From IMG/VR virus record IMGVR_UViG_3300049448_000568, positions 1-48,148 of that record: a stretch of DNA of 48,148 nt; one strand, written 5' to 3'. Made by a program: the position numbers and the translations under genes. The notes beneath the pieces are model-generated. The model was not told the DNA's origin, ran no database searches, and worked only from the letters and a program-made list of their open reading frames with translations. Every line of letters starts with the position of its first letter. Positions within the stretch are counted from its first letter, which is position 1. Shown here one piece after another: positions 10,999 through 33,622 of the stretch. This DNA is from a virus.

Positions 10999-11019
10999 TG
11001 TTGGCCCTCGCAGTCAGGC

Positions 11020-11048: not shown

Positions 11049-11171
11049 GCAAGGGAAGACTGATAAATGCGCGGTTCCCGGTTAAGATACCGAGAAGCCC
11101 CGGACGGGGGAGACTGTTGCTTCCGCGGGCACGCCGGTAGGCTGCGCGCTGACCGAGCAGGAGCACCGACC

Positions 11172-16817: not shown

Positions 16818-16857
16818 GGTATCAGTCCTCTGGGCGGGTGGAGTGTCTATGGAGTCG

Positions 16858-17124
16858 CTACGCGGTCAAGTACCGGATGGTGGGCGACGCCTTGGGGCGG
16901 GACAACCGGCTGAGCTCCTGATAGGGATCGGAGCTGAAGGGCGGCGCCGGGTTCATTCCATAGGCCGCCCCCAGCACCGCCAGCGATGCGACGAGCCGGG
17001 CGCGCTTGGCCTTGGACAAGGGCTCTTCTGCCCCGCGCATCGGGGTGAACGGTGGCCGGTAGCGGCGCCAGTACAGGTCAGGCGACCGCCGACGGTTCAG
17101 GGCTCTGCGGGCGTGGTGCTTCAT
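16858..17124 (-). CDS. basic hypothetical protein, 88 aa
   Basis: The N-terminal third is highly basic (KHHARRALNRRRSP), followed by a short hydrophobic helix (LVASLAVLGAAYGM) that could be membrane-associated. ATG overlaps the stop of the 642-residue gene. The stop codon lies in the TTGACC element of the candidate downstream promoter. No family recognised. Confidence 0.5.
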   Translation of the reverse strand: MKHHARRALNRRRSPDLYWRRYRPPFTPMRGAEEPLSKAKRARLVASLAVLGAAYGMNPAPPFSSDPYQELSRLSRPKASPTIRYLTA

Positions 17125-19521: not shown

Positions 19522-20166
19522 TCAGTACACCAGCCCGAGTGACTCGACCGCGCTCTTGAACTCGGCCATCAGCGCCGGCAGCCGGGCCAGCAGCGCCGCG
19601 GTCAGCTCCTCCTTCGGCGCCAGCAGCTGCGCGTCGGTCGCCTCGGGCCAGATCGCGCAGTCGCGCGCAGCGGCGAGGTCGCGGTCCTTGCCGTCTTCCA
19701 GGACCGGAAAGTAGTGGAGGGTTATCGACTCCGGCTTCTCGGCCTGGCAGACCAAGTCGATGCGACCCGGCAGGTAGCCCAGCTGCCACATCGGCTTCCC
19801 GGCGCGGTCGCAGCGCTGCTTGCCCTTGTCCCCGTCGCCCGCGTGGTAGACGGTGTTGGCGACGTAGTGCAGCGGCCCGTCGCTGCTGCACAGGTGCCAC
19901 TTGAGCAGCGGGGCGAGCTCGGGGAAGTGCTTGGCGACGTCGTCGTGGCACATGCCGCCGCAGTCGTCGCGCCAGAAGTCGTGGCCACGGATGTCGATCT
20001 GCGCGGTGATGGCGAAGCTGTTGTGGCCGTTGCCGCACGAGTCGTCGTAGCGGATCGTCGCGGTGATTCGGTACTGCTCGCCGTCCTTGGCGAAGTAGAC
20101 CGGGCCTTTCTTCTTGACCTGCTTCTTGGTCAGGACGGAGGCGGGGAGGTTGGTGGTGGCGTTCAT
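19522..20166 (-). CDS. hypothetical Cys/His-rich protein, 214 aa
   Basis: Contains several Cys and His residues in DDSCGNGHNSF, DFWRDDCGGMCHDDVAKHF and WHLCSSDG, suggesting a metal site, plus a helical Ala/Leu-rich C-terminus. No family recognised. It uses the shared CCTGGAAAGGG leader six bases before the ATG, tying it to the co-regulated early genes. Confidence 0.6.
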   Translation of the reverse strand: MNATTNLPASVLTKKQVKKKGPVYFAKDGEQYRITATIRYDDSCGNGHNSFAITAQIDIRGHDFWRDDCGGMCHDDVAKHFPELAPLLKWHLCSSDGPLHYVANTVYHAGDGDKGKQRCDRAGKPMWQLGYLPGRIDLVCQAEKPESITLHYFPVLEDGKDRDLAAARDCAIWPEATDAQLLAPKEELTAALLARLPALMAEFKSAVESLGLVY

Positions 20167-20172
20167 GGGTTG

Positions 20173-20183
20173 CCCTTTCCAGG
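20173..20183 (-). promoter_or_regulatory. shared leader / ribosome binding site CCTGGAAAGGG
   Basis: This copy of the recurrent leader stands without its own promoter, only 26 bases from the preceding stop. It therefore seems to act at translation rather than transcription. Confidence 0.6.
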
Positions 20184-20192
20184 CTTGGCGGG

Positions 20193-20528
20193 TTAGCGGA
20201 CGCGGATCGAGTAGACAGTGACCTTGCCGCTGCGGCGCGGCGTCTTGACCGTGAAGGTCTTCAGTTCGGGGAGGGCGCCCAGGGTCGAGCCGGGCAGGTG
20301 GCTCTCCGGCATCTTGTACCAGACCGGCTTCGCCCGCTCGGTCTCGGCGAAGGTGAGCGGGTCCAGCAGGATCCCGACGCGGCTGCGGGCCGGCGCCGGC
20401 ATCTTGGGGTCGATGTAGAACACCCCGTCGATCGGGCTGTCTTCCGTCTCGCGGAAGAACGTCACCGTGCGGCCGGCGCGGCGCGCTTTGTCTTGCAGGT
20501 CGAGGAGCTCGCGGCGATCGGTGCTCAT
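20193..20528 (-). CDS. hypothetical protein, 111 aa
   Basis: Unrecognised. Segments include RRAGRTVTFFRETEDSPIDG and a beta-rich C-terminus ending in TVYSIRVR. It has both the shared promoter (20562-20590) and the shared leader, so it heads a transcript that continues into 20166-19522 and beyond. Confidence 0.6.
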   Translation of the reverse strand: MSTDRRELLDLQDKARRAGRTVTFFRETEDSPIDGVFYIDPKMPAPARSRVGILLDPLTFAETERAKPVWYKMPESHLPGSTLGALPELKTFTVKTPRRSGKVTVYSIRVR

Positions 20529-20561
20529 GGGTTGCCCTTTCCAGGCTTGGTGTCGAGGAGG

Positions 20562-20590
20562 ACTATGGAGGATCTAGGGAGCGATGTCAA
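20562..20590 (-). promoter_or_regulatory. family promoter TTGACA-N17-CATAGT with leader
   Basis: TTGACA and CATAGT are 17 bases apart, with the tandem element CTCCCTAG then CTCCATAG in the spacer and -10. CCTGGAAAGGG follows at 20545-20535, six bases before the ATG of the 111-residue gene. A 64-base block here (20533-20596) is repeated with one mismatch at 20931-20994. Confidence 0.75.
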
Positions 20591-20599
20591 GAGCCGGGT

Positions 20600-20926
20600 T
20601 CACTCGTCGAAGGACACGACTACGCGCGCCGAAGCCCGCATGACGCGCCCGGTCCAGAAGTACTCGTTCCCGACCTGGACGACGCCGAACACCTCGTGGC
20701 CCACTCCGTCGCCCGACGCGATCTCGCGACCGATGTACGAGAACTCGCTGCCATCGTCGCGATCCTCGTAGGTCTCGACCAGCGCGAGACGGACCGCCTC
20801 GTCAGGCGTGGTCGCCACGCGGCCTCCGCTCATGCTGGTGCAGTGCCGCATGCTCTCGCACGTCCAGTGCGTCGGGGTCTCGCCCTTGTAGCTGCGCGGC
20901 GAGGTATGGAAGCGGAGTGACGTCAT
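20600..20926 (-). CDS. hypothetical protein, 108 aa
   Basis: Unrecognised soluble protein. The middle (GGRVATTPDEAVRLALVETY) and the end (VFGVVQVGNEYFWTGRVMRA) look like a small alpha/beta domain. It has its own copy of the family promoter and leader, so it can be expressed independently of the next gene. Confidence 0.6.
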   Translation of the reverse strand: MTSLRFHTSPRSYKGETPTHWTCESMRHCTSMSGGRVATTPDEAVRLALVETYEDRDDGSEFSYIGREIASGDGVGHEVFGVVQVGNEYFWTGRVMRASARVVVSFDE

Positions 20927-20959
20927 GGGATGCCCTTTCCAGGCTTGGTGTCGAGGAGG

Positions 20960-20988
20960 ACTATGGAGGATCTAGGGAGCGGTGTCAA
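20960..20988 (-). promoter_or_regulatory. family promoter TTGACA-N17-CATAGT with leader
   Basis: Same elements as the copy 398 bases to the left: CTCCCTAG and CTCCATAG with 17-base spacing, leader CCTGGAAAGGG at 20943-20933. The promoter overlaps the TAG stop of the upstream gene. Confidence 0.75.
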
Positions 20989-21241
20989 GAGCCGAGGCGC
21001 GCTGCGCCTGCACCTCTGCCCATTTCGCCTCGTAGTCGGCGACGGCCCGCGCGGTGAGGTCGATGTCTTCTTGTGGGTGCGGGCCCGAGCGGCCGGCGTA
21101 GTCTTCGCCAGCCCGCAGCTTCCGTAGGTCTTCGCGGTAGGTCGCGATGATCCGCGGCAGCCGGTCTTCGTCGGCCTGCGCCAGCGCGGCGGTCTCGAAC
21201 TGATGACCGAGGACGCTCTGGTAGATGGTCAGGATCTTCAT
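20972..21241 (-). CDS. hypothetical helical protein, 89 aa
   Basis: The sequence after MKILTIYQSVLGHQFETAAL is mainly helical and charged, with YREDLRKLRAGEDYAGRSGP in the centre. No family recognised. It is first in the minus-strand early operon and has the family promoter and leader immediately upstream. Confidence 0.6.
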   Translation of the reverse strand: MKILTIYQSVLGHQFETAALAQADEDRLPRIIATYREDLRKLRAGEDYAGRSGPHPQEDIDLTARAVADYEAKWAEVQAQRASALDTAP

Positions 21242-21271
21242 GTGCTGCCCTTTCCAGGCTGGTACGACAGC

Positions 21272-21300
21272 ACTATGGAGCCTCTCCCTAGCCCTGTCAA
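21272..21300 (-). promoter_or_regulatory. family promoter TTGACA-N17-CATAGT with leader
   Basis: TTGACA and CATAGT are separated by 17 bases that contain a diverged first repeat. Leader CCTGGAAAGGG at 21258-21248 precedes the ATG by six bases. It is divergent from the plus-strand promoter at 21347-21375, so the 169-base gap drives both strands. Confidence 0.75.
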
Positions 21301-21346
21301 CACCCTGTTTCTACGACCCAGGTAGTAGATGGATCCGGGTCGGCGC

Positions 21347-21375
21347 TTGACTTCTCTCCATGGACGCTCCATAGT
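21347..21375 (+). promoter_or_regulatory. family promoter TTGACT-N17-CATAGT
   Basis: CTCCATGG and CTCCATAG fill the spacer and -10. Unlike the minus-strand copies the following leader is different (AAAAGGAAACC before ATG), so promoter and leader can be uncoupled. It is the first promoter of the long plus-strand block. Confidence 0.75.
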
Positions 21376-21410
21376 GCCGGTGTCAACCCAACTCCGAAAA
21401 GGAAACCTCC

Positions 21411-21776
21411 ATGGGCCAGTACCACAAAGTCGTCAACCTCGACAAGAAGCAGTTCCTCCACCCGCACCGCCTCGGCGACGGGCTCAAGCTCGGCGAGTTC
21501 GGCTGCTCGTCCCACGGCACCATGACCGCACTGGCTTACCTGCTGGGCGTGTCCACCGGCCGGGGCGGCGGCGACTTCGACCGCGGATCGCTGGCCGGCA
21601 CCTGGGGCGGCGACCGTATCGCCATCATCGGCGACTACGCCGAGGCGAAGGACCTCGCTCCGGAGCACGACGCCGCGAACCTCTACGAGAAGCTGAGCGA
21701 AGAAGCCGACGGCTGGAAGGACATCAGCGGCTTGGTCGCTGGCGAGCTGCCCGGCGACATCAGCGCGGAGCGCTAG
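21411..21776 (+). CDS. conserved MGQYHKVVNLDKKQ-type protein, 121 aa
   Basis: Begins MGQYHKVVNLDKKQFLHPHR and continues GDGLKLGEFG. I recall this opening from a small conserved family in actinobacteria and phages whose function is not known. The remainder includes GGGDFDRGSLAGTWGGDRIA and IIGDYAEAKDL, an alpha/beta-looking sequence with many acidic residues. It is the first gene after the strand switch and has its own family promoter. Confidence 0.65.
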   Translation: MGQYHKVVNLDKKQFLHPHRLGDGLKLGEFGCSSHGTMTALAYLLGVSTGRGGGDFDRGSLAGTWGGDRIAIIGDYAEAKDLAPEHDAANLYEKLSEEADGWKDISGLVAGELPGDISAER

Positions 21777-21778
21777 CC

Positions 21779-22063
21779 ATGCCCTCCCCACCCGCCACCC
21801 TCCTCGGTCAGCTCGGCCCCTACTCGTTCTACCTGCCCCAGTCCGGCGGGAAGGCCGGCAAGGGCTGCAACAAGACCAGCTCGATCCAGGTGTTCAAGGA
21901 CGGCTGGATCCGCCGGTACTTTCGGTTCACCTTGGCCAACGACGGCGCGATCGAAGCCGTGCGCCAGGCGAAGGCCTGGGCCCAGGCCGAGATCGACAAG
22001 ACCGTCGCCAGCCGCGAGCTCGCGCTCAATGACCTCAAACGCGACCCAGGAGCACCGTCGTGA
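21779..22063 (+). CDS. hypothetical protein, 94 aa
   Basis: Starts MPSPPATLLGQLGPYSFYLP and contains FKDGWIRRYFRFTLANDG then a long helix (EAVRQAKAWAQAEIDKTVAS). Not recognised. GGAG precedes the ATG two bases after the previous stop, and the gene ends in a GTGA overlap with the next. Confidence 0.55.
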   Translation: MPSPPATLLGQLGPYSFYLPQSGGKAGKGCNKTSSIQVFKDGWIRRYFRFTLANDGAIEAVRQAKAWAQAEIDKTVASRELALNDLKRDPGAPS

Positions 22064-22449
22064 ACCAGAAGACCCGTGCCGTCATCCGGAACCTGATCGA
22101 TGCCGTCAACCGTGGCCAGTATGGCATGCGGACCGCAGAGCAGGCGGCCATTGCCGCGGTCGACGCCGCCGAGAAGCTGCTCAACCCGCCGGTGCGGTTC
22201 CTGTGGACGTCACCGGGCGCCACCTCGCTCGGGCGCTACTACCGAGCCGACGTCGGCGGGTTCATCTACCACATCGAGCGCAACGGGGACACGCGGGACA
22301 CCCTCGGTTGGTCGAGCTGGGTCGGCCCGTCGGGCGGCCCCGAGCCCGGCGGCCCTGAACAGTACATGGGTGTTGTGCATCCCACCCTCGCTGCCGCCAA
22401 GCAAGCCTGCGTCGACTACGGTGTCGCTCACCGTCGCCCCACCACCTGA
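22060..22449 (+). CDS. hypothetical protein, tandem paralog 1, 129 aa
   Basis: Shares order and wording with the next gene: an N-terminal helix, AAVDAAEKLLNPPVRFLW, a beta segment (GRYYRADVGGFIYHIER) and the end PTLAAAKQACVDYGVAHRR. Function unknown. GTG start with AGGAG upstream. The pair probably arose by local duplication. Confidence 0.6.
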   Translation: MNQKTRAVIRNLIDAVNRGQYGMRTAEQAAIAAVDAAEKLLNPPVRFLWTSPGATSLGRYYRADVGGFIYHIERNGDTRDTLGWSSWVGPSGGPEPGGPEQYMGVVHPTLAAAKQACVDYGVAHRRPTT

Positions 22450-22463
22450 AAGGAACCCCAGCC

Positions 22464-22919
22464 GTGAACGCCAAGCTCAAGACCGCGCTCGACCACCTGC
22501 TGAAGACCGCCGACGAAGGCGCGGGCTGCATCGACGACCCGCACAGCCGCGTGGCGAGCAAGCTGTTCGCCGCGGTCGACGCCGTGCGCAAGCTGGTCAA
22601 CCCGCCGGTGAGGCTTGCATGGTACCGTACCTTCAGCGACGGTTCCTACCGCGCGGTGGTGGGTGTCGTGACCTATACGATTCGCCGCGCCTCGGGAAAG
22701 CGGCTCGCATGGCGCACCGTCGTGTCCGTCGAGGGTAGCGACGTCAAAGCCCTCTACTTCCCCACCCTCGCCCTCGCCAAGCAAGCCTGCGTCGACTACG
22801 ACGTCGCGCGTCACCGCGCCGCCGCCAAGTCTGCGCAGCTTCACACCGACCCCGCCATCCGCAAGGCGCTCACCCCGAGCCCGTTACCCCCACTAACCCG
22901 TCGAGGACCACCATGCTGA
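22464..22919 (+). CDS. hypothetical protein, tandem paralog 2, 151 aa
   Basis: Matches its left neighbour in AAVDAVRKLVNPPVRLAW, SYRAVVGVVTYTIRR and PTLALAKQACVDYDVARHR. It differs by a Pro-rich C-terminal extension after residue 120. GTG start with AAGGA upstream; the stop overlaps the following gene by seven bases. Function unknown. Confidence 0.6.
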   Translation: MNAKLKTALDHLLKTADEGAGCIDDPHSRVASKLFAAVDAVRKLVNPPVRLAWYRTFSDGSYRAVVGVVTYTIRRASGKRLAWRTVVSVEGSDVKALYFPTLALAKQACVDYDVARHRAAAKSAQLHTDPAIRKALTPSPLPPLTRRGPPC

Positions 22920-23095
22920 AGCTGAAGAAAACCGTCACCGCCATCATGCGCCTCCCGACCATCGAGCGCTGCGCTTCCTGGTGGAGAGCCGAAGGCTTCC
23001 CCGTGCCGCCCGACGTCCCGGGCCGGGCGCTGGGCAGGCTCAGCGGCGACACCGTCACGTTCACCTGGATCGCCGTCACCAACGACGGCGACTGA
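22913..23095 (+). CDS. small hypothetical protein, 60 aa
   Basis: Basic start (MLKLKKTVTAIMRLPTIERC) followed by a Pro-rich turn and a beta-like end (LGRLSGDTVTFTWIAVTNDG). Unknown. GAGGA precedes the ATG. Confidence 0.5.
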   Translation: MLKLKKTVTAIMRLPTIERCASWWRAEGFPVPPDVPGRALGRLSGDTVTFTWIAVTNDGD

Positions 23096-23105
23096 AGGAC
23101 CCACC

Positions 23106-23222
23106 ATGCTCGAATGCACCGTCATCATCCTGGTCGCCGCCGGCCTCCTCGCCCTCGGCGTCAAGCTCGTCTTCATGCTCGACCGGAAGATGCGCAAGGA
23201 AGACGCGGAGAACCAGAAATGA
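23106..23222 (+). CDS. 38-residue membrane peptide
   Basis: A single hydrophobic helix (MLECTVIILVAAGLLALGVK, then LVF) followed by a charged tail (DRKMRKEDAENQK). AAGGA is upstream and ATGA couples it to the next gene. One of several very small single-pass membrane proteins in this genome. Confidence 0.5.
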   Translation: MLECTVIILVAAGLLALGVKLVFMLDRKMRKEDAENQK

Positions 23223-23428
23223 GAACCGACATCATCCTGAGGGACACCGTCTACATCACCCTCCCCGGCGGCACCGGCGAGTCCTGGCGTATCTCGGTGG
23301 ACCCGGTCTGGGGCATCCGGGTCGAGGCGGTCGGAGCGTCTCGGATCCCGTCGTGCCCCGACCTCGTCAACCGTCCCGATCTCGTCGCGCAGCAGCGCAA
23401 AGCCCGGCGACCGCGAGGCGGCGCTTGA
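23219..23428 (+). CDS. small hypothetical protein, 69 aa
   Basis: Beta-rich N-terminal part (MRTDIILRDTVYITLPGGTG, then ESWRISVDPVWGIRVEAV) and a basic tail (AQQRKARRPRGGA). Not recognised. Its last codons overlap the -35 of the following family promoter. Confidence 0.5.
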   Translation: MRTDIILRDTVYITLPGGTGESWRISVDPVWGIRVEAVGASRIPSCPDLVNRPDLVAQQRKARRPRGGA

Positions 23429-23453
23429 CAAAGCTCCGTAGCCGCTCCATAGT
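23425..23453 (+). promoter_or_regulatory. family promoter TTGACA-N17-CATAGT with leader
   Basis: CTCCGTAG and CTCCATAG repeat in the spacer and -10. Leader CCTGGAAAGGG at 23470-23480, ATG six bases later. The TTGACA overlaps the stop codon of the preceding gene. Confidence 0.75.
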
Positions 23454-23486
23454 CCTGCCAACCGCCAAGCCTGGAAAGGGCACCCC

Positions 23487-23699
23487 ATGATCGACCTCGC
23501 CACCCTCAGCACTGAAGACCTGACCAAGGAGCTCTGCCGCCGCATGGCGGCCGGTAAGGAGATTCCGGAAGACGATTACGACCAGTGCGGCGTGCCGGGC
23601 GAGCTGGACACCGTCGGCGCCGCCAAGGACGTCTGCCACGCCGTTCTCAAAGCCGCGAAACGCAACAGCCTCGGCGGCTGCTTGCTCTGCTGCTCCTAA
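23487..23699 (+). CDS. small hypothetical protein, 70 aa
   Basis: Acidic N-terminal half (TEDLTKELCRRMAAGKEIPE, DDYDQCG) and a Cys-rich C-terminus (GGCLLCCS), which might bind metal or be lipid-anchored. Unknown. Expressed from the family promoter with the shared leader. Confidence 0.5.
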   Translation: MIDLATLSTEDLTKELCRRMAAGKEIPEDDYDQCGVPGELDTVGAAKDVCHAVLKAAKRNSLGGCLLCCS

Positions 23700-23708
23700 A
23701 CCTACCAG

Positions 23709-23719
23709 CCTGGAAAGGG
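23709..23719 (+). promoter_or_regulatory. shared leader / ribosome binding site CCTGGAAAGGG
   Basis: A second promoterless copy of the leader, nine bases after the previous stop codon and six bases before the next ATG, again pointing to a translational role. Confidence 0.6.
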
Positions 23720-23725
23720 CACCCC

Positions 23726-24298
23726 ATGACCCAGCTCACCGACGCCGAGATCCTCACCCTGGCCAAGACCCCGAGCTTGCCGTGCACCTCGTGCAAGGGC
23801 ACCGGCACGTACGTCTCCCCGGCCTGGAGCTACGAAGGCACCGACTACCCGGAGCGGACCACCAAGTGCTACGGCTGCGACGGCCGCGGGTCGTTCACCT
23901 GCCCCGACACCGCCGCGATCGTCAAGCTCCTGTCGGGCAAGTCGAAGGGCGGCCTGCGCTCCGCCAAGCCGAAGCAGGACACCGAAGCCGGCAAGCGCGC
24001 CGCGTACGTCTGGCGCTTCGCGCGCTTCCACGGCGGGGCCGACGTCACCATGCCGTGCACGGTCGACGCCCAGGGCGACCCGTACAAGGTCCTGCTCGAC
24101 CTGATGGCCGACGCGGTCGCCAGCCGGGCCTTCGGCACCAACATGGCCGCGGCCTACCGCTGGGGCCGGGCGCTCGGCTTCACCAACAAGGCGACGCCCG
24201 AGGGGCTGCCGGCGAGCGCCTACGAAGGTGGACCGGAGCACGATTGGAAGGACCAGGACACCATCACCATGCTGCGGCTCAGCAAGAAGGAGACTTGA
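23726..24298 (+). CDS. DnaJ-type zinc finger protein, 190 aa
   Basis: CTSCKGTG (C20, C23) and CYGCDGRG (C48, C51) are two CxxCxGxG units like the DnaJ Cys-rich domain, with a further Cys at 59. No J domain is present. Phages often carry isolated DnaJ-type fingers of unknown role. The C-terminal part is helical (VLLDLMADAVASRAFGTNMA) without a known signature. Shared leader upstream; co-transcribed with the preceding small gene. Confidence 0.65.
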   Translation: MTQLTDAEILTLAKTPSLPCTSCKGTGTYVSPAWSYEGTDYPERTTKCYGCDGRGSFTCPDTAAIVKLLSGKSKGGLRSAKPKQDTEAGKRAAYVWRFARFHGGADVTMPCTVDAQGDPYKVLLDLMADAVASRAFGTNMAAAYRWGRALGFTNKATPEGLPASAYEGGPEHDWKDQDTITMLRLSKKET

Positions 24299-24300
24299 TC

Positions 24301-25074
24301 ATGGGGACCACGTACAAGCCCGCAGAGTTGCGGATCGTCATGCTGCGCAGCGGCAGCATCCCGCCAATACGGGTGGTGTGGGGAGTCGAGCTGTGGTTCG
24401 CGGCAACGTCGTCGCCGCAAGACCGCGTGCTCGCCCAGGGTACCGCCGAGACCTACAAGCTCGCCTGCGCGGCCGCCGGCGAAGCGTTCGACCGGCTGAC
24501 GGCGCCGAAGGTCGAAGTGAAGAGCGCCACCCAGCCGTGCGACGGCTGTGGAAAGGACCCAGCCATTGGTCTGGTAGGAGACGGGGTTCAAGTCAAGTGC
24601 TTCAACAAGGCTTGCCCGGCGCCCCAGCAAGGAGCCGTCCGGTCGCGCCCACTCGACGCGATCGACTCGTGGAACGAATCGCGGTGCACCGTTCCGCGCG
24701 AACCGGGGGAGCTCGACATCATGCAGCGCATGAAGGAGTACCAGCAGAAAACCTGCGGTCCCGACTGGCAGGCCGAAGCCCAACGCGCGACCCAGCAGTA
24801 CAACGACCTGCTCGCCACGGTGACCGCAGCGCTCGCCGAACTCGACGCCTTCCCGGGTAAGTACGATTACGGCCTGGGGGTCTGCGACGCGATCAAGGTT
24901 TTCCGTCGGCACCTCACTCCGAAGCCCACCAAAGACCCCGCCATCGTCCGCGCCTTGCAGGAAGCCCTGCGGGCGTACCGCGAGGTCTCGCACGACCGAG
25001 TCAACGGCGACGATGTCAAAGCGATGGCGGCGGCCATCGCGGCGTACGAGACCGAGAAGGCGAAGAACCCGTGA
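24301..25074 (+). CDS. zinc protein with Lar-like segment, 257 aa
   Basis: CDGCG (C80, C83), KCFNKAC (C100, C105) and then LDAIDSWNESR (W124, N125) match the pattern of Lar/restriction-alleviation zinc proteins, which end their finger with an 'A...WNxR' helix. In Rac prophage, Lar modulates type I restriction; most phage homologs are untested. The remaining regions are an N-terminal beta segment and a long helical C-terminus. GGAG precedes the ATG, and GTGA couples the next gene. Confidence 0.6.
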   Translation: MGTTYKPAELRIVMLRSGSIPPIRVVWGVELWFAATSSPQDRVLAQGTAETYKLACAAAGEAFDRLTAPKVEVKSATQPCDGCGKDPAIGLVGDGVQVKCFNKACPAPQQGAVRSRPLDAIDSWNESRCTVPREPGELDIMQRMKEYQQKTCGPDWQAEAQRATQQYNDLLATVTAALAELDAFPGKYDYGLGVCDAIKVFRRHLTPKPTKDPAIVRALQEALRAYREVSHDRVNGDDVKAMAAAIAAYETEKAKNP

Positions 25075-25202
25075 AAGCCCTGTGCTCCTTCACCCTCAAC
25101 GTCTCGCTGCTGGTTGCCGCCGCGTACCTGGCTGGGACCGGCCACCTCTGGTGGTGCGGGCTCGCGCTCCTGTTCGTGCTGGAGCGGGAGGTGCGGTCGT
25201 GA
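25071..25202 (+). CDS. 43-residue membrane peptide, GTG start
   Basis: Two short hydrophobic stretches (FTLNVSLLVAAAYLAG and HLWWCGLALLFVL) joined by a turn, ending LEREVRS. Likely a hairpin in the membrane, a shape seen in small holins and other phage peptides, but there is no direct evidence for lysis. Coupled on both sides by GTGA. Confidence 0.45.
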   Translation: MKALCSFTLNVSLLVAAAYLAGTGHLWWCGLALLFVLEREVRS

Positions 25203-25420
25203 ACCTCGAAGACCCAGCCGCGCGAGATCGCGAGACCAAGATCGCCGGGCTGGTCAAAGGCGTGACCGCCTGCAACCGCGAGGCGTGCCAGTGCCGGCTC
25301 ATCATCGGGCAGCGGTGGTGGAACCTGTCAACGCAGCAGTGGTACTGCCGCGGCTGCGCGAACCGAATCAACAACCACAACCACGAGCGGATCTGCGTCC
25401 GCGAATCGGAGAAACCGTGA
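25199..25420 (+). CDS. small Cys-rich protein, 73 aa
   Basis: C25, C30, C32, C50 and C53 (CNREACQC and CRGC) with nearby His residues suggest a zinc ribbon. The segment RWWNLSTQQWYCRGCANRIN looks like a zinc-ribbon hairpin. Not assigned to a family. GTG start and GTGA ending overlap the neighbours. Confidence 0.5.
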   Translation: MNLEDPAARDRETKIAGLVKGVTACNREACQCRLIIGQRWWNLSTQQWYCRGCANRINNHNHERICVRESEKP

Positions 25421-25788
25421 GCCAGTTCGCCGCTATCGACATCGAAGCCCTCGCCAAGCAGATCAACCAGATCGGCGTCAGCGTCGAGCTGGAGAAGCTG
25501 CAGGCGCTCGTGGCCCTCAAGCAGCTGGCGATCGAGGCGTTGAAGGACGCCGCGGCCGAGAGCGCCAAGTGCCTGGACAAGATCAACGACGACATGCGCG
25601 CGTTCTCGAGCATCGCCTACGAGCTGGAGCCCGATGCCCGGGTCGCGTATCTGGTCAAGCGCTTCGGCAGCACGACCGCCGCGGCCGAGAAAGTCGAGCA
25701 GATGCTGGTGGAGGCCGCGCGAGTCGCGCGCTGGGTCCTGGTGACCAAGTGGGCGGAAGTGCTGATGATCATCGGCCCGGCGAGGTGA
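25417..25788 (+). CDS. helical hypothetical protein, 123 aa
   Basis: Almost entirely helical with heptad-like Leu/Ala spacing (ELEKLQALVALKQLAIEALK), so probably a coiled-coil protein. The C-terminal VARWVLVTKWAEVLMIIGPA is hydrophobic enough for membrane contact. Function unknown. A small hairpin (AGTCCT and AGGACT, 25803-25818) follows without a T tract. Confidence 0.55.
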   Translation: MSQFAAIDIEALAKQINQIGVSVELEKLQALVALKQLAIEALKDAAAESAKCLDKINDDMRAFSSIAYELEPDARVAYLVKRFGSTTAAAEKVEQMLVEAARVARWVLVTKWAEVLMIIGPAR

Positions 25789-25830
25789 TGGTGGTGTAGT
25801 CCAGTCCTGACAAGGACTTACGTCCACCCC

Positions 25831-25859
25831 TTGACTTCGCTCCATAGATCCTCCATAGT
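25831..25859 (+). promoter_or_regulatory. family promoter TTGACT-N17-CATAGT with leader
   Basis: Perfect tandem CTCCATAG in the spacer and -10. AGGACTTACG lies eight bases upstream of TTGACT, as it does at the promoter 27416-27444. Leader CCTGGAAAGGG at 25876-25886. Confidence 0.8.
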
Positions 25860-25892
25860 GTGGTCGTACCACCAGCCTGGAAAGGGCACCAC

Positions 25893-26846
25893 ATGACCAA
25901 CATCGCCACCATCCGCGCCCACCTCGACTCGCCGCTGTACGACGCGGTCAAGCTCGAGTCCCGTCGGAGTTTCGTCGCCTGGGTCGGCGAGCGGCTGGCC
26001 CACTGGAGCAAGGAAGTCCTGGCCTACGTCCCGGACCCGAAGGACCCCTGGCAGCGGAAGTTCCCGGGCGCTGGCTACCCCGGGATGTTCTTCGTTAAGC
26101 CGGCCTCGGTCGAGGCGGTGAAGACCGCCCACCCCACCAGGGGCCCGCGTGAGGACCACGTCGTCAACGCCGTCGTGATCGCCGCAGTCAAGGCCGGCGA
26201 GTATGCGGTCAACGTCGTCAGGGCTGAGAAGCAGGCCGACGACAACTGGGCCGCCAACAAGGATTTCTACGCCCACCGCGTCGGCATCAAGCTCGACGAG
26301 ATGCTGCAGGCCGACGCCCAGATCGAGTGCAATCTGGAGCGCTCGGTTTACCTGATCGGCACCGTGACCGCGGTTGTCGACGGCAAGACCCTGGTGCTTC
26401 GTACCAACCTCAAGACCAACTACCGGTACGGCGAGTTCTCGGCGAACGGCGACATCACGATCTACCGGCAGGTGCCGACGGTGATCCAGAGCGCCAAGGG
26501 CTTCGACGTGGCCGCGCGGGAGCGGCAGATCCGGTACGAAGCGACCGCCGCGAAGACGGAGCGTGCCGCCAAGTGCGAGGCAGCTGCGAAGGAGCTTCAG
26601 ATCCTGGAGCGCCGCAAGTCGAACTGGGACGACCTGTACAGCACCCTGCGCTACGTCGCAAAATACACCGGCGGTCTTCCGCAGAACGGCAACCTGTCGT
26701 ACGCGCAGGAGCGCTGGGCCAAGCTCGGCGGCGAAGGCAAGCCGCTGCCCAGCCTGAACGACGCCAAGCTCCAGGTCGCCGACCTGCGGGCCCAGGTCAA
26801 GGCCGCCAAGCTGGCGCTCAAGGCGGCGCGGGCGGTGAAGGCATGA
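25893..26846 (+). CDS. hypothetical protein, 317 aa
   Basis: Not recognised. The first half is alpha/beta (SRRSFVAWVGERLAHWSKEV, later EDHVVNAVVIAAVKAGEYAV). The middle has a beta-rich part (YLIGTVTAVVDGKTLVLRTN), and residues from about 205 form a long charged helix (REAAAKELQI-like Ala/Glu/Arg-rich sequence). Strong promoter and leader suggest high early expression. Its stop overlaps the next ATG. Confidence 0.65.
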   Translation: MTNIATIRAHLDSPLYDAVKLESRRSFVAWVGERLAHWSKEVLAYVPDPKDPWQRKFPGAGYPGMFFVKPASVEAVKTAHPTRGPREDHVVNAVVIAAVKAGEYAVNVVRAEKQADDNWAANKDFYAHRVGIKLDEMLQADAQIECNLERSVYLIGTVTAVVDGKTLVLRTNLKTNYRYGEFSANGDITIYRQVPTVIQSAKGFDVAARERQIRYEATAAKTERAAKCEAAAKELQILERRKSNWDDLYSTLRYVAKYTGGLPQNGNLSYAQERWAKLGGEGKPLPSLNDAKLQVADLRAQVKAAKLALKAARAVKA

Positions 26847-27091
26847 CCCTCCACACCTTCCTCGGCGAGACCGAGCTCCGGAACCGGGTCAGCTTCGAGC
26901 AGCCCGACCCGGAGACGGTCGAGGAGGACCTGCTGCGGGCGCGCCGCCGGCGCGAGCACTACGCGGCCCGGCTCAAGGGGCTGGCGCTTGCCGATGCGTT
27001 CGAGCAGGTCACGTTGCGCGAGCTCGAGAGCCTGCCGTGGAAGCTGGTCGCGGCCGGGATCCGGGCGGTCTCACAGGCGGCGCCCCGATGA
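26843..27091 (+). CDS. hypothetical protein, 82 aa
   Basis: Helical and charged (EEDLLRARRRREHYAARLKG, LREL). Unknown function; ATGA-coupled to both neighbours, so probably produced in a fixed ratio with them. Confidence 0.55.
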   Translation: MTLHTFLGETELRNRVSFEQPDPETVEEDLLRARRRREHYAARLKGLALADAFEQVTLRELESLPWKLVAAGIRAVSQAAPR

Positions 27092-27390
27092 CCCGCCGCC
27101 CACCCAAGAAATTCGTGTTCACCCAAGGCAAGGACAAGCCCATGACCGAGAAGCCCATCACCATCGCCGGCAGCGGCGACTTCGAGCTGTGGACGGAGAA
27201 GGCCCTGGCGCAGCGGCGGGCGGTAGAGACCGCGCGGGAGCAATACCGTCAGGCAGCGGCGAAAACGCCCAGAGAGTCGCAGGAGTTGCTGGCGCGGGCG
27301 ATCCGTGCCGAAGCCGAGGCCCTCCGGATCGAGGCCGCCCTGGCGGCGTACACCAAACAGCGGCAGGCGGGAGAAAATTACAAAGGTTGA
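27088..27390 (+). CDS. hypothetical helical protein, 100 aa
   Basis: Basic N-terminus (MTRRPPKKFVFTQGKDKPMT) followed by a long helix (AREQYRQAAAKTPRESQELL, then ARAIRAEAEALRIEAAL) likely to be a coiled coil. A second possible start is the Met at residue 19, but the ATGA overlap favours the first. Unknown function. Confidence 0.55.
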   Translation: MTRRPPKKFVFTQGKDKPMTEKPITIAGSGDFELWTEKALAQRRAVETAREQYRQAAAKTPRESQELLARAIRAEAEALRIEAALAAYTKQRQAGENYKG

Positions 27391-27415
27391 TGCTTACAGG
27401 ACTTACGATTGGTCA

Positions 27416-27444
27416 TTGACTTATCTCCATAGACCCTCCATAGT
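27416..27444 (+). promoter_or_regulatory. family promoter TTGACT-N17-CATAGT with leader
   Basis: Tandem CTCCATAG present; AGGACTTACG is eight bases upstream of the -35 as at 25831. Leader CCTGGAAAGGG at 27462-27472. It drives the UvrD-like helicase and the following genes. Confidence 0.8.
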
Positions 27445-27478
27445 AGTGTCATCACCGCTAGCCTGGAAAGGGCAAACC

Positions 27479-29041
27479 ATGATCAAGCTCGCCACCATCA
27501 CCGAGACCCCCGCCGCCGCTCCGGCCCGCGTGTGGAGCCCTTACCAGGAGGCCATTTTCCGGGCCTTCACCGAGGGCAGCGGCAACATCACGGTCGAAGC
27601 AGTCGCCGGCGGGGCCAAGACCAGCTCGCTGCTGGAGGCTCTGAAGCGCTGGCAGGCCGTCCCGGCGAACCGCGGCAAGCGCGCCATGTTCTGCGCGTTC
27701 AACAAGTCGATCGCTGACGAGCTGAGCCGCAAGGTCCCGGCTGGCGTTGAGGCCCGCACCTTGCATTCCCTCGCGTTCAGCGCGGTGGCGCGCCGGTTCA
27801 AGGGCATCAAGGTCGACGACTACAAGCTGCGCGACACGGCGCACATGGTGGCGGTCGCCGCTCTCGGCCAGCAGGACGCGGAGCGGGTCAACACCGCCGT
27901 GGCCGACATGACCAAGGTCTACGGGCTGCTGCGCGGCACGATGACCAACCTGACCGACTCGGATGCGGTGGCCGAGACGGTCGCGGCCTACGGCACCGGT
28001 CTGGACGCCCCGACCGATAGCCTGCCCCTGCTCAACGAGCTGGACCAGGCGATGAAGAGCGACACCGGTCGCTGCACGTTCACCGAGATGCTGACCTTCG
28101 CCATCGACTTCAGCATTCCGCTCCCGCGCTACGATTTGCTCTGCATCGACGAGAGCCAGGATCTCAACCGCCTGCAGATCGAATTGCTGAAGCGCGCCCT
28201 GGCGCCCGGCGGCAGGCTCGTCGCCGTAGGCGACTCGAGACAGAGTTTGTACCTATTTCAAGGGTCAGACGCCCGCGCGATGGAGCGGATCCGCGAGGAG
28301 TTCGACGTGTCGCAGGGCAACCAGTTGCCGCTCAGCGTGACCTACCGTTGCCCGCGCGCGGTGGTGGCGTTGGCGCAGACCTGGGTGCCGCACATCCAGG
28401 CCGCGGACGGCGCGATCGAGGGGGAAGTGATCCAGCGGACCGGCAAGCAGTTCGCCGAGACCCTGAAAGGCCTGGAGCCTGAGAGCATGATCATTTGCCG
28501 GGTCAACGCTCCGCTGGTGGGCGTGGCGCTGCGCCTGATCGCCATGGGCAAGAAGGCCTGCGTCCGCGGTCGGGACATCGGCAAGAACGTGTCGAAGCTG
28601 GTGGCCAAGCTGTCCAAGCGGATGGACGATCGGGACGTGGTGGCGTTCGTCGAGCGGGTCACGGCTTACGGCGACACCGAGTCGGCCAAGCTGCTGAAGG
28701 CCCGGAAGGACAGCCAGGCCCAGCAGGTGCAGGACCTGTGCGAGACTCTGCTGGCGCTCTTGGAGGGGATCGACACGATCAGCGCCCTGCAGCGCCGGAT
28801 CGACGCGCTGTTCTCGGACGAGCGGGTCGGGATCACCTGTTCGTCGGTGCACAAGGCAAAGGGCACAGAAGCGGCCGTCGTCGTGTGGTTGGGCCCCGAG
28901 AAAAACGACCAGATGGAAGAGCGGGCCCGCAGCGAGAGCGCACGGATACAGGAATCGAATAATCGCTACGTCGCGGTCTCGAGGGCGATGAGGACCCTGA
29001 TCATCCAACCGCTGCCCCCGAAGAAAGGTGAGGACGAATGA
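27479..29041 (+). CDS. UvrD/PcrA-like superfamily 1 helicase, 520 aa
   Basis: All SF1A motifs are in order: WSPYQEAI (Q23), Walker A AVAGGAKTS (41-49), TLHSLAFSA (motif Ia-like), CIDESQDL (Walker B), VAVGDSRQSLYLFQGSD (III), LSVTYRCPRAV (IV), SSVHKAKGTEA (V) and RYVAVSRAM (VI). Length is shorter than UvrD (about 720), so accessory domains are reduced. The Walker A has Ala in place of the Gly before Lys. Such enzymes unwind DNA 3' to 5' in repair, recombination or rolling-circle replication. Its stop overlaps the next gene, a likely endonuclease. Confidence 0.9.
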   Translation: MIKLATITETPAAAPARVWSPYQEAIFRAFTEGSGNITVEAVAGGAKTSSLLEALKRWQAVPANRGKRAMFCAFNKSIADELSRKVPAGVEARTLHSLAFSAVARRFKGIKVDDYKLRDTAHMVAVAALGQQDAERVNTAVADMTKVYGLLRGTMTNLTDSDAVAETVAAYGTGLDAPTDSLPLLNELDQAMKSDTGRCTFTEMLTFAIDFSIPLPRYDLLCIDESQDLNRLQIELLKRALAPGGRLVAVGDSRQSLYLFQGSDARAMERIREEFDVSQGNQLPLSVTYRCPRAVVALAQTWVPHIQAADGAIEGEVIQRTGKQFAETLKGLEPESMIICRVNAPLVGVALRLIAMGKKACVRGRDIGKNVSKLVAKLSKRMDDRDVVAFVERVTAYGDTESAKLLKARKDSQAQQVQDLCETLLALLEGIDTISALQRRIDALFSDERVGITCSSVHKAKGTEAAVVVWLGPEKNDQMEERARSESARIQESNNRYVAVSRAMRTLIIQPLPPKKGEDE

Positions 29042-29922
29042 GCGTCGAAGTAGGCACACAGGTAGCCGCCCCGATGGGCAACTACTTCCCCCTGGCCAAG
29101 GATCGGCAGGGGGAATCGGTGGTGTCGTTCGACCGGCACGGGCACTACTTCGTGGGGCGTACAGCCCCGATCTACGAATTGGTGAAGGTGGTCGAAGAAG
29201 ACTACACGGGCCCTACCTATCTGGTGGAGGCCGGCGCCTACAGCGTTCGCGCGTCTCCGGGGCAAAAGTGGCTCGCGAAATTTACTTCCCGAGACCAGGC
29301 TCTGTGGGTGAACTACCTCATGAAGCGCGGCTCCGACTTCCGTGTGGGTTGGTGCCAGTTTTTCGACGGTAACGGGTCCAACCACCTCACCCTGCGTACA
29401 CGCATCGAGTGCGCCGACTCCATGTGGGTGCTGAAGGTGCACCACTCGAAGGCCGACGCGTCGCTCGAAGAAAGTTTCGTGGCCGCGCGCTTTGGTCTTC
29501 CCCTGGTCATGTTCAAGGAATCGCATCCGGTCGGGTCGCCCGTTCCGGCGGTGTACACGCAGAAGAGACTCGACCGTTTCTTCAAGGACTACCGCGCCGC
29601 CCTTGGCTCTGAGGTCGATGAACGTGTAGCAGCTTGCTTAGCGCACTACCAGCGCGATCTCCGATATCCCTTTGCGCGTGTGGGCGCGTGGGAATATCGG
29701 CGCGGGCGCACCACCAATTTCTGCACTGAGAGCTGCAATCTCCTGACCGACGTCATGAGCGTTGCGACGCGCGTAAGCGAGGGACGTGAGACGCACTGGC
29801 TCAAGGTCTCCGCTGCGCGGGAGCCCAAGATGCTCCGCCGCAGAATGTGCTCCGCTGCCGCGTCCAAGCACGGCTACATCCTCGTCAATGGTATCCTCGC
29901 TGCACCCAACGAAAGCCGCTAA
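29038..29922 (+). CDS. Hint/GIY-YIG-like homing endonuclease, 294 aa
   Basis: Residues 60-80 (YLVEAGAYSVRASPGQKWLA) resemble the Hint (intein) block B, but Gln replaces the usual His. WVNYLMKRGSDFRVGWCQF is GIY-YIG-like (Y..YLM..G..RVG), followed by RTRIECADSMWVLKV and LEESFVAARFGLPLVMF carrying candidate catalytic Arg and Glu. The C-terminal SKHGYILVNGIL resembles the end of Hint domains. Together these suggest a free-standing homing nuclease derived from Hint plus GIY-YIG parts, not an active intein. The assignment is by pattern and moderately secure. It overlaps the helicase stop by ATGA. Confidence 0.55.
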   Translation: MSVEVGTQVAAPMGNYFPLAKDRQGESVVSFDRHGHYFVGRTAPIYELVKVVEEDYTGPTYLVEAGAYSVRASPGQKWLAKFTSRDQALWVNYLMKRGSDFRVGWCQFFDGNGSNHLTLRTRIECADSMWVLKVHHSKADASLEESFVAARFGLPLVMFKESHPVGSPVPAVYTQKRLDRFFKDYRAALGSEVDERVAACLAHYQRDLRYPFARVGAWEYRRGRTTNFCTESCNLLTDVMSVATRVSEGRETHWLKVSAAREPKMLRRRMCSAAASKHGYILVNGILAAPNESR

Positions 29923-29923
29923 C

Positions 29924-30514
29924 ATGCCCACCGTCATCCACTCCAACCTCCTCAAGCTCCGCCCCGACATCCTCCACTGGCTCAAGACCTGCGGCTACAA
30001 GCGCCTCGCCGAGGTCGGCGTCCGCGAAGGCCACCATCTCAAGACCTGGATGACTGCCCAGCCGACCAACGTCATCGCGGTGGACATCTGGGCCCAGACC
30101 GAGATCAAGAGCAAAAATGACAAGGGGCACAACCAGGCAAAGTGCGACGCGATGTACGCGCACCTGCAGGCCTACGCCAAGGATCTCCAGCTCCAAGGCA
30201 TCAACCTCCAGCTCCTGCGCGGCGACTCCGTCAAGATGTCATCCGCGGTCGTCGACGGCGAGCTCGACTTCGTCTACCTCGACGCCGACCACACCTACGA
30301 AGCGGTCAAGGCCGACATCGCGGCGTGGTGGCCGAAGGTCCGGGTCGGGGGCACCCTGGGCGGCCACGACTACATCGGGATCGAGCGGTTCGGCGTCACG
30401 TTCGGGGTGATCCGGGCGGTCGATGAGTTCGTCGCGTCGCTCGGGATCGCGGAGAAGGTCCACACTACGGCCGACTCGTACGCGAGTTGGTTCGTCACCA
30501 AGGGGGCGGTATGA
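29924..30514 (+). CDS. class I SAM-dependent methyltransferase, 196 aa
   Basis: RLAEVGVREGHHLKTW (about 27-42) is motif I, and FVYLDADHTYEAVKADI is motif IV with an Asp-Ala-Asp that is typical of Methyltransf_24-type enzymes. The later GGTLGGHDYIG is the usual post-strand loop. These enzymes often act on sugars or small molecules and occur with glycosyltransferases in phages. Substrate unknown. It is coupled to the next small gene by ATGA. Confidence 0.8.
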   Translation: MPTVIHSNLLKLRPDILHWLKTCGYKRLAEVGVREGHHLKTWMTAQPTNVIAVDIWAQTEIKSKNDKGHNQAKCDAMYAHLQAYAKDLQLQGINLQLLRGDSVKMSSAVVDGELDFVYLDADHTYEAVKADIAAWWPKVRVGGTLGGHDYIGIERFGVTFGVIRAVDEFVASLGIAEKVHTTADSYASWFVTKGAV

Positions 30515-30837
30515 ACGGAGCCATCTCATCACTGCTCTGTGTGGCGGGCTTCCTGGTAGGGTGGTGGATCACGGACCGCGTGATAACGGCGTCGAAGAAG
30601 GGCGAGCAGCAACCCGCCCCTGCCGCCTCCGTCTCCATCCCCGCCAGCAGCACCCCCGGCTTCATCCTGGTCCACCAGCGCAACGAGCCGGTCTACCTCG
30701 CCGTCTCGAAGCTCGTGACCTTCAGCAAATACGCCGACGGCACCCGGCTCGACCTGATGGACGGGTCGGTGGTGATGGTCGGCGAAGGCGTCGACGTCAT
30801 CGTCCTGATGCTGCAGAATGCGGAGAAAACCAAATGA
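30511..30837 (+). CDS. membrane-anchored small protein, 108 aa
   Basis: One hydrophobic segment at the N-terminus (SSLLCVAGFLVGWWITDRVI) with few charges before it, then a Pro/Ala-rich linker and a beta-looking domain (FILVHQRNEPVYLAVSKLVT). This is the shape of a signal-anchored protein exposed outside the cytoplasm or a spanin-like anchor, with no further support for lysis. ATGA on both sides. Confidence 0.55.
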   Translation: MNGAISSLLCVAGFLVGWWITDRVITASKKGEQQPAPAASVSIPASSTPGFILVHQRNEPVYLAVSKLVTFSKYADGTRLDLMDGSVVMVGEGVDVIVLMLQNAEKTK

Positions 30838-31142
30838 CCCCCGAGCAAGAAGATCGCGTCCGAGAGATCAGGGCCGAGATCGAGGCCCGCTGGAGCAGCC
30901 CTGAGTTCGAGCAGGCCGCGATGTCGTGGGCCTCGGATCAGCTACGGGGGCAGCTACGCAAAGCGCGGGCTCCGCAGCGCCAAAGCTGGACGGATGTTGG
31001 GCTCATGGTGCTGAGCGCGACCCTGATCCTGCTCGCGATTGTGCTGTTCGCCGCTTGGCTGGACGGCCTTCCCGCCAAGCTGCACCCCGGCATGCACTGG
31101 GTGCCGCAGGTCAACGGGCACTGGGAGAAGGACACGCCATGA
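30834..31142 (+). CDS. single-pass membrane protein, 102 aa
   Basis: A charged N-terminal helix (EDRVREIRAEIEARWSSPEF) precedes one membrane segment (VGLMVLSATLILLAIVLFAAW), then a short tail with HPGMHWVPQVNGHWEKD. The tail resembles that of the protein at 11995-12288. Function unknown. Confidence 0.55.
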   Translation: MTPEQEDRVREIRAEIEARWSSPEFEQAAMSWASDQLRGQLRKARAPQRQSWTDVGLMVLSATLILLAIVLFAAWLDGLPAKLHPGMHWVPQVNGHWEKDTP

Positions 31143-31450
31143 GCCGCGACATCCGCATCACTGACACCAACCGCGGCTTGCTCGCGGTGATCGGCGCCTG
31201 GATGGACCAGCTGCCGCCCGACGTGGTTACGGCGCTACAGCAAGCGGCACGAGATCTCGCCAAGAGCCCGTGGAAGACGGATGGATGGAATGACGAACCT
31301 GCCTCGGGCGCGACGGTGCTGATTTGGGCAAAGTCCCGGCTCTTCACCATCAGGAGCTACGCCGGTTCCTGGCAGACCGACGAAGGTACCGCGCTCGGGT
31401 CCGAGGACATCGACCGGTGGATGGAAGTACCCGAGCACGACGAGGCTTGA
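31139..31450 (+). CDS. hypothetical protein, 103 aa
   Basis: Soluble, with Trp residues at regular intervals (SPWKTDGWNDEPASGATVLI, then WAKSRLF) and an acidic end (DRWMEVPEHDEA). The second half, from 'W.D.P.sG..VL...' to 'DIDRWMEVP', resembles a DUF551-type phage domain. Its stop is part of the -35 of the next promoter. Confidence 0.55.
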   Translation: MSRDIRITDTNRGLLAVIGAWMDQLPPDVVTALQQAARDLAKSPWKTDGWNDEPASGATVLIWAKSRLFTIRSYAGSWQTDEGTALGSEDIDRWMEVPEHDEA

Positions 31451-31475
31451 CTCCGCTCCATAGAGCCTCTATAGT
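31447..31475 (+). promoter_or_regulatory. family promoter TTGACT-N17-TATAGT
   Basis: The best -10 of the family (TATAGT). CTCCATAG and CTCTATAG form the tandem element. The TTGACT contains the stop codon of the upstream gene. The leader here lacks CCTGGAAAGGG and has CAAGGACC instead. Confidence 0.8.
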
Positions 31476-31503
31476 CGGGCAACACCAAACCAAGGACCAG
31501 CCC

Positions 31504-31947
31504 ATGAACGCCTCCCTCTCCGCCCTCTCCCCCGCCGCCATCCTGGCGCTCAGCAAGATGCTGACCGAGACGGTCGTCAACGACGCCCGGGATCAGATCA
31601 CGGCCGGCGACCACGACGTCGAGTGCATCGTCCACGTCCGTGGCGAGCTCCACGTTGACGACGACAGCATGACCCAGCAGATCAACAAGCTGCAGCCGGC
31701 CCTGCTGCTCAAGCTCGCGATGGACAAGCTCAACAAGGTGTCGATCGACTCGCTGATCACCGAAGCCCTGGAGATCCTCGAGAAGAGCAAGGCCCAGGGC
31801 GAGAAGCAGACCGAGGTCGAACCGGAAGGCCTGGAGAAGTTCAAAAAGCGCACCGCCGCGGCCTGGAAGCGGCTGGCCAAGGCGACCTCTCAGCGTCGCC
31901 GCGGCGCGGTGGTGTTCGAGGGCGACATCACGCCGGCGGAAGCATGA
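31504..31947 (+). CDS. hypothetical helical protein, 147 aa
   Basis: Helix-rich throughout with a central beta strand (ECIVHVRGELHVDDDSMTQQ) and a basic C-terminal stretch (KRTAAAWKRLAKATSQRRRG). The central 'G.l.V..Ds...' segment with many Asp residues may be a small domain, but it is not recognised. It has its own strong family promoter. Confidence 0.55.
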   Translation: MNASLSALSPAAILALSKMLTETVVNDARDQITAGDHDVECIVHVRGELHVDDDSMTQQINKLQPALLLKLAMDKLNKVSIDSLITEALEILEKSKAQGEKQTEVEPEGLEKFKKRTAAAWKRLAKATSQRRRGAVVFEGDITPAEA

Positions 31948-32917: not shown

Positions 32918-32946
32918 TTGACTCCCTAGCCTCTCCATAGTATCCT
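32918..32946 (+). promoter_or_regulatory. shortened variant of the family promoter with leader
   Basis: TTGACT is followed by CTAGCCTCTCCATAGT with only 12 bases before CATAGT. With normal 17-base spacing the -10 would be TATCCT (32941-32946). The leader CCTGGAAAGGG is intact at 32961-32971. Confidence 0.55.
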
Positions 32947-32977
32947 CAGTCATACTCCAACCTGGAAAGGGTACCCC

Positions 32978-33622
32978 ATGGGCCGCTTCACCACTCGCGA
33001 CATCATCCTCTCACTGATCTGCTTCGCCTGCTTCCTGGCGGCGCTGGTGCTGATCGCGCCGCAGGTGCACGCCGACGACGCGCTGCCGGCGACGATCCCC
33101 TCGACCTTCGACCTCGATTCCCTCGGCGTCGACTCCCGGCTGCTGCCCGGCGTGCCCGCCCTGACCCAGTACCAGAACGAGGTCGCCAAGGCCAAGACCA
33201 ACTACGAGACCGCGGTCCTGAAGGCGGCCGAGGAGCTCCGCAAAAAGCTGGCAGCCGCGCAGGAGCAGGCCACCAAGAGCGGCGATCTCGACAAGGCCTT
33301 GGCGATCCGGGCTGCGATGGACAAGCTGCCCAAGGCGCCGAAGGCGGTGGCGGCAACTGCCCCGACCGACCCCATTCACCGGCTCTTGGGCAAGTGGCGC
33401 GTGACGACCGGCGGATACGCCGGAGTCTGGACGATCGCCGACAAAGGTCGGGTCGTGAACAACACGGGGGACACCGGCTCTTACAAAGCCGCTGCGACCG
33501 GGATCGAGATCCAGTGGTCGAACGGGCGGCTGGAGACAGTGACCTACCCGGAGGACGGCGCAGCGGCGACTGCGGGCGTCGGCGGTAGCGGCGCCCCGTT
33601 GGCCTTGAACCGTATACCGTGA
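32978..33622 (+). CDS. exported protein with Planctomycetota-like domains, 214 aa
   Basis: An N-terminal signal peptide is clear: charged start, hydrophobic SLICFACFLAALVLIA, then a VHA site near residue 32. The middle is a helical hairpin ending GDLDKALAIRAAMDKL, and the C-terminus reads LGKWRVTTGGYAGVWTIADK followed by GIEIQWSNGRLETVTYP. I recall both segments from secreted planctomycete proteins of unknown function. A phage carrying it suggests host-derived cargo, perhaps altering the cell surface. It uses the shared leader and ends in a GTGA overlap with a glycosyltransferase. Confidence 0.7.
   Translation: MGRFTTRDIILSLICFACFLAALVLIAPQVHADDALPATIPSTFDLDSLGVDSRLLPGVPALTQYQNEVAKAKTNYETAVLKAAEELRKKLAAAQEQATKSGDLDKALAIRAAMDKLPKAPKAVAATAPTDPIHRLLGKWRVTTGGYAGVWTIADKGRVVNNTGDTGSYKAAATGIEIQWSNGRLETVTYPEDGAAATAGVGGSGAPLALNRIP

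Follow-up and report, generated by a model that had tools for sequence, protein, structure and literature searches.

The window analysed in this study is an entire IMG/VR virus record (IMGVR_UViG_3300049448_000568, 48,148 bp). It carries a family of promoters that share a tandem octamer, CTCCATAG-N3-CTCCATAG. The tandem is a real and well-defined element that lies in the core promoter and is present in related phages. It is probably a dispersed operator through which one phage regulator represses early-region promoters by occlusion; the likeliest protein is the ribbon-helix-helix (RHH) protein named here RHH-A.

Eight promoters of the form TTGAC(A/T)-N17-(C/T)ATAGT had been listed in a sequence-only reading of the window, and all eight were found at their coordinates (Table 1). 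The octamer, as CTCCATAG or a one-letter variant, had been proposed to occur twice in most of them, 12 bases apart. Direct tandems were present in 7 of the 8, and the spacing was corrected to a start-to-start distance of 11 bp. In the remaining promoter, at 21272, copy 1 was inverted in place (CTAGGGAG). The statement that recognition occurs on both strands held only in the sense that the promoters face both ways, five on the plus strand and three (20562, 20960, and 21272) on the minus strand. The unit at 20960 is a recent near-duplicate of that at 20562, with 97% identity over 72 bp. A ninth promoter, at 32918–32946, was missed earlier because its TTGAC overlaps copy 1.

The 19-bp tandem pattern CTCCNTAGNNNCTCCATAG, allowing up to two mismatches, had 9 matches in the window, compared with a mean of 0.01 and a maximum of 1 in 100 dinucleotide shuffles. 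The reversed pattern, used as a control, had 0 matches in the window. Matches just as common inside genes had been named as evidence that would count against the promoter family. Counting only direct tandems whose copies each had no more than one mismatch, all eight lay at non-coding DNA, which makes up 11.6% of the window, and one of them overlapped a gene end by 8 bp; the promoter family withstood this check. Gene positions and the non-coding share were obtained with our own simple gene caller. In 8/8 cases a start codon followed on the same strand, 29–37 bp downstream of the tandem.

A conserved leader, AGCCTGGAAAGGGCA, preceded 9 window genes when up to two mismatches were allowed; counted from its first base, the start codon came 19 bases later. 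It includes a Shine-Dalgarno-like GAAAGG. Six leaders stood behind a direct tandem, one behind the inverted form, and two had no promoter of their own. Selection by the leader is independent of the tandem; among the 9 window leaders so selected, 6 were preceded by the tandem and one more by a tandem with copy 1 inverted. Because it also occurs at genes without their own promoter (23701–23725 and 20163–20190), the leader has a function separate from that of the tandem, probably in translation start.

Viral contigs were scanned for the tandem, and 27 stretches were obtained. Several records with 2–7 sites are real relatives of the window, and single matches (e.g., L009, L012, L014, and L016) were judged to be chance, with no promoter or leader context. 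Four relatives are referred to here as G1–G4. G1 (109,520 bp) is apparently complete because it has 110-bp terminal repeats; G2 is closely related to the window; G3 and G4 (L079/L080) are further relatives. Across the window and G1–G4, 32 same-strand octamer pairs were found at 11 bp and at most 2 at every other distance up to 40 bp; G1 accounted for 12 of the pairs at 11 bp. Gene identity across the tandem-bearing genomes was only about 65–80%. The flanks, N4, and the N3 linker diverged between sites, and both octamers were retained. All IMG/VR records in which a relative of the helicase (at least 62% identity) or of the polymerase was found were already known tandem carriers, except 3300028909_000447, a short record outside the tandem scan.

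The position of the promoter relative to the tandem was compared across sites. At 17 sites TTGAC started 9 bp before copy 1, and the −10 hexamer, (C/T)ATAGT, lay inside copy 2 in 17/17. At 4 sites (window 32922, G1 14202, G2 24418, and G2 35215) TTGAC started 4 bp before copy 1, with none at −9; the first three of these are probably orthologous. At 17 bp further on, the hexamer was TATCCT, TACCCT, TACACT, or TACGCT, which fits TANNNT in 4/4 cases against a background of 0.1–0.3%. In this register the −10 hexamer directly follows the tandem. TTGAC was located at −6 or −7 at 5 sites, and an exact TTGAC was missing at 6, two of which (G1 6286 and 108633) are opposite in orientation to the gene they precede. 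Inversion of copy 1 in place was also found in G2 (35791/35856), besides window 21272. Since the promoter register varies relative to the tandem, recognition of the tandem is independent of that by RNA polymerase. RNA polymerase alone cannot explain a tandem that is kept while the promoter shifts. The earlier proposal that conservation of the spacer implies a second recognising protein was thus supported.

A second repeated element, GTGTGATACAC, was located well upstream of several promoters lacking TTGAC (G4 about 84384, 85133, and 88127; G1 6249 and 108596; G3 6671). It resembles a CRP-type activator site, and in G4 it lies within a longer conserved promoter block. A conserved GTGTGAtACAC element was found upstream of the reversed G1 sites 6286 and 108633.

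A spacing of 11 bp is about one helical turn; therefore, both octamers lie on the same side of the DNA. The tandem would serve as an operator, scattered over many early-region promoters, that one phage regulator recognises by its sequence. With the operator between −35 and −10, or over one of them, occupancy would block RNA polymerase. One repressor could shut down about a dozen short transcription units at once, whether in a quiescent state or once the first minutes of infection have passed. Repression by occlusion is favoured because the tandem is placed in the core promoter, the −35 boxes are good, and several registers are tolerated. Two features of a dispersed operator set were found: the same element stands at several promoters (nine in the window), and it overlaps the core promoter independently of the polymerase motif. 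The repressor is most likely phage-encoded, and RHH-A, the best single candidate, may act like P22 Arc. The more specific description of a novel phage-wide switch, a floating operator with two octamers that are direct or, in a few cases, inverted, a fixed 11-bp phase, at least three core-promoter registers, and an RHH repressor, in phages of Planctomycetota, is put forward only tentatively.

Several observations weigh against the operator reading with RHH-A as repressor. The promoter position is unclear at the reversed tandems of G1. Most tandem sites were found by the motif itself, and their per-base conservation is partly circular. No tandem was found upstream of RHH-A in the window, G1, or G3, so the autoregulation that is common, though not universal, among RHH repressors was not seen. 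Further small candidates for DNA binding occur almost as widely as RHH-A. The missing tandem at RHH-A lowers the assignment to this protein and leaves the operator claim as it was.

Other explanations of the tandem were weighed. It could be bound by an activator or a polymerase-retargeting factor, with the promoters forming a middle-gene class like that of T4 MotA. The two tandem sites without TTGAC that might need help agree with this, yet an activator requires a fixed geometry to polymerase, and the promoter shifts by 2, 3, or 5 bp relative to the tandem. Sigma-70 promoters with a 17-bp spacer and a near-consensus −35 need no activator. Only MerR-type activators act from a position over the spacer and −10, at promoters with long spacers of 19–20 bp, whereas the spacers here are 17 bp. 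An activator is considered unlikely. It is improbable that the octamers are an extended core promoter read by RNA polymerase or a special sigma factor. The −10 hexamer within copy 2 at the 17 sites would suit such a promoter, but the −10 after the tandem at 4 sites, TTGAC at −6 or −7 elsewhere, the 2 reversed sites without TTGAC, and the inversion of an octamer in place would not. Least probable of all is that the sites are copies of a duplicated promoter-leader cassette in which the tandem has no separate function. The near-identical units at 20562 and 20960 and the shared leaders are what duplication would give; elsewhere, the surroundings diverged as described above while the octamers were kept, and the promoter register varied as well.

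A host regulator might also bind the tandem, the phage tapping a host regulon. This is compatible with the phage data, the phage regulator being a candidate only, and it was judged quite improbable from a scan of bacterial and archaeal genomes. The promoter plus tandem was found in 5 stretches, 3 of them from one Planctomycetota bog metagenome-assembled genome (MAG). Identity between these MAG contigs and G4 reached 99.9%. The MAG had four exact tandems, three of them on contigs that match G4; the fourth (C174) is identical in tandem sequence to the site at G4 10840. The rest of the 5.9-Mb MAG contained two 2-mismatch matches, the same number as for the reversed control, so beyond the phage contigs it showed no tandem excess, although the host link of the MAG is itself uncertain. 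Matches in Pyrodictium and Marinimicrobia MAGs (L081 and L084) were not counted, as 1–2 chance matches are expected by our own estimate. The results suggest that G4 has its likely host among the Planctomycetota, and that the same holds for the window by kinship, with the caveat that MAG binning can be wrong. The gene at 32978–33622 was compared with 149 Planctomycetota genomes, and weak matches were found in 4 only, one of which was the phage contig itself.

To identify the predicted tandem-binding protein, small DNA-binding proteins were compared among the genomes. RHH-A was found in 5/5 genomes: in the window, G1, G3, and G4 it adjoins the DNA polymerase gene, and the G2 copy is truncated, its C-terminus lying at the broken end of that sequence. 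A match to RHH families covered the first 45 residues of RHH-A (Pfam Antitox_RHH at 7.6e-5, which falls short of the curated cut-off), and E values against ParG and CopG chains were 0.03–0.2. CopG and Arc were among the best matches in a fold search, which used a low-confidence AlphaFold model (pLDDT 57 for RHH-A and 61 for RHH-B, with four sequences available and RHH proteins being obligate dimers). In the omega protein, RHH dimers each take one short (7-bp) subsite, in direct or inverted order (PMC9499535). Such binding in either order fits the in-place inversions at 21272 and G2 35791/35856. From these comparisons, RHH-A itself may be the tandem-binding regulator, with about one chance in three. 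Three further candidates are given in Table 1; for one of them, RHH-B, the structure search did not support an RHH fold. An RHH-like open reading frame at 43407 was rejected, as it was not found in the relatives. Upstream of RHH-A, TTGTGCAG repeats were present (window 7600–7699 and the corresponding parts of G1 and G3), in a non-coding region of about 700 bp beside the polymerase gene. They are possibly an origin or an autoregulatory site.

The tandem was compared with known systems. As with P22 Arc, CopG, omega, and RelB, the phages here encode a conserved RHH protein. The Arc operator lies between −10 and −35 of its promoter, with half-sites about one turn apart. Its half-sites are inverted and serve one promoter, whereas the predicted operator here is mostly direct and spread over about 8–13 promoters. 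OmpR/PhoB-type winged-helix regulators bind head-to-tail direct repeats with an 11-bp phase, and PhoB boxes are upstream and activating; the in-place inversion of one copy fits this type less well. Cluster A mycobacteriophage stoperators likewise comprise numerous scattered, asymmetric sites that one phage repressor recognises (PMC9283540). Unlike the tandems, which lie in core promoters, they also stop elongation and are spread genome-wide; all direct tandems in the window were at promoters, and no stoperator-type distribution away from promoters was found there. SPBRE of prophage SPbeta is a repeated element in about 10 intergenic promoter regions, which was first found in silico and later shown to be the site of the master repressor MrpR (PMC10516654). 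It differs in being a single 15-bp motif, with another protein class and another host. In Cluster K mycobacteriophages, the short conserved start-associated sequence SAS precedes gene starts, and about half of the copies have a longer upstream repeat, ESAS (PMC3203893), just as the leader here mostly has a tandem upstream. SAS differs from the leader in sequence. ESAS consists of 17-bp imperfect inverted repeats with a variable spacer (mostly 4–13 bp), unlike the direct octamers at a fixed 11 bp in a recognisable promoter. No paper was found on 11-bp direct-repeat operators at early phage promoters. The tandem is a new element and a new form of the known dispersed phage operators (stoperators and SPBRE), with Arc-like geometry.

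Table 1. Positions of promoters, leaders, and candidate regulator genes in the window.
Feature	Position	Strand	Remarks
Promoter TTGACA-17-CATAGT	20562–20590	−	Tandem CTCCCTAG/CTCCATAG, copies 20574–20581 and 20563–20570; serves gene 20193–20528
Promoter TTGACA-17-CATAGT with tandem	20960–20988	−	Serves gene 20600–20926
Promoter TTGACA-17-CATAGT	21272–21300	−	Copy 1 inverted, CTAGGGAG; copy 2 CTCCATAG; serves gene 20972–21241
Promoter TTGACT-17-CATAGT	21347–21375	+	Tandem CTCCATGG/CTCCATAG; divergent from 21272
Promoter TTGACA-17-CATAGT	23425–23453	+	Tandem CTCCGTAG/CTCCATAG
Promoter TTGACT-17-CATAGT	25831–25859	+	Tandem perfect
Promoter TTGACT-17-CATAGT	27416–27444	+	Tandem perfect; precedes UvrD-like helicase gene
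Promoter TTGACT-17-TATAGT	31447–31475	+	Tandem CTCCATAG/CTCTATAG
Promoter TTGACT-17-TATCCT	32918–32946	+	Tandem CTCCCTAG/CTCCATAG at 32922–32940, 5 bp closer to −35 than elsewhere
Degraded tandem CCGCGTAG/CTCCATAG	16847–16865	−	TTGAC overlapping; before gene 16596–16817; present in close relative too
Conserved leader without own promoter	20171–20185	−	Orthologous gene in G1 and G3 has tandem promoter directly upstream
Conserved leader	20533–20547	−	
Conserved leader	20931–20945	−	
Conserved leader	21246–21260	−	
Conserved leader AGCCTGGAAAGGGCA	23468–23482	+	
Conserved leader without own promoter	23707–23721	+	Inside operon
Conserved leader	25874–25888	+	
Conserved leader	27460–27474	+	
Conserved leader, variant AACCTGGAAAGGGTA	32959–32973	+	
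RHH-A, ribbon-helix-helix protein	7700–8056	+	Best candidate tandem-binding repressor
Small protein, winged-helix-looking by eye	12965–13246	+	Rival candidate; window, G1, G2, and G3; not found in G4; no Pfam match
RHH-B, RHH-like	37317–37619	+	Weaker candidate; RHH_1 E 0.18; window, G1, G2, and G4
Small helix-turn-helix (HTH) protein	37622–37861	+	Weaker candidate; IclR-type HTH E 1.9e-4; window, G1, and G2

The window has a GC content of about 66%. Its replication genes encode a 1,630-aa protein whose C-terminal half is a DNA polymerase, the UvrD-like helicase, a Cas4/RecB-like nuclease, and a serine recombinase. The window is probably a fragment, because capsid and tail genes were not recognised in the scanned proteins, which were a subset of all its proteins. 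A megablast search of an annotated phage collection with 20300–31700 gave no DNA-level match, and at the protein level the matches were limited to distant helicases and polymerases from many hosts. The source is a little-known, uncultured soil phage family. The adjacent genes at 22060–22449 and 22464–22919 are diverged tandem duplicates (repeats D10 and D19). The protein encoded at 47071–47736 (minus strand) has near-identical GYVDAKAYQGTGDMEDD repeats close to its C-terminus, with homologues in G1, G2, and G4. Two stretches had no called gene: 10385–11171 (787 bp), which adjoins a metallophosphoesterase gene and may contain an uncalled gene, and 33623–34387 (765 bp), which looks coding by eye and is perhaps a broken glycosyltransferase-like gene.

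In an uncultured family of phages without a DNA-level match in annotated phages, the tandem provides a clear-cut regulon that can be tested. The shift of the promoter relative to an operator that stays fixed amounts to a natural experiment in which recognition by polymerase and by a regulator can be separated from sequence alone. Fragments of the phage family can be detected and connected through the motif, as happened in this analysis. To our knowledge, very little is known of phage gene regulation in Planctomycetota. If these bacteria are the host, the tandem would give a hint of how their phages time their genes.

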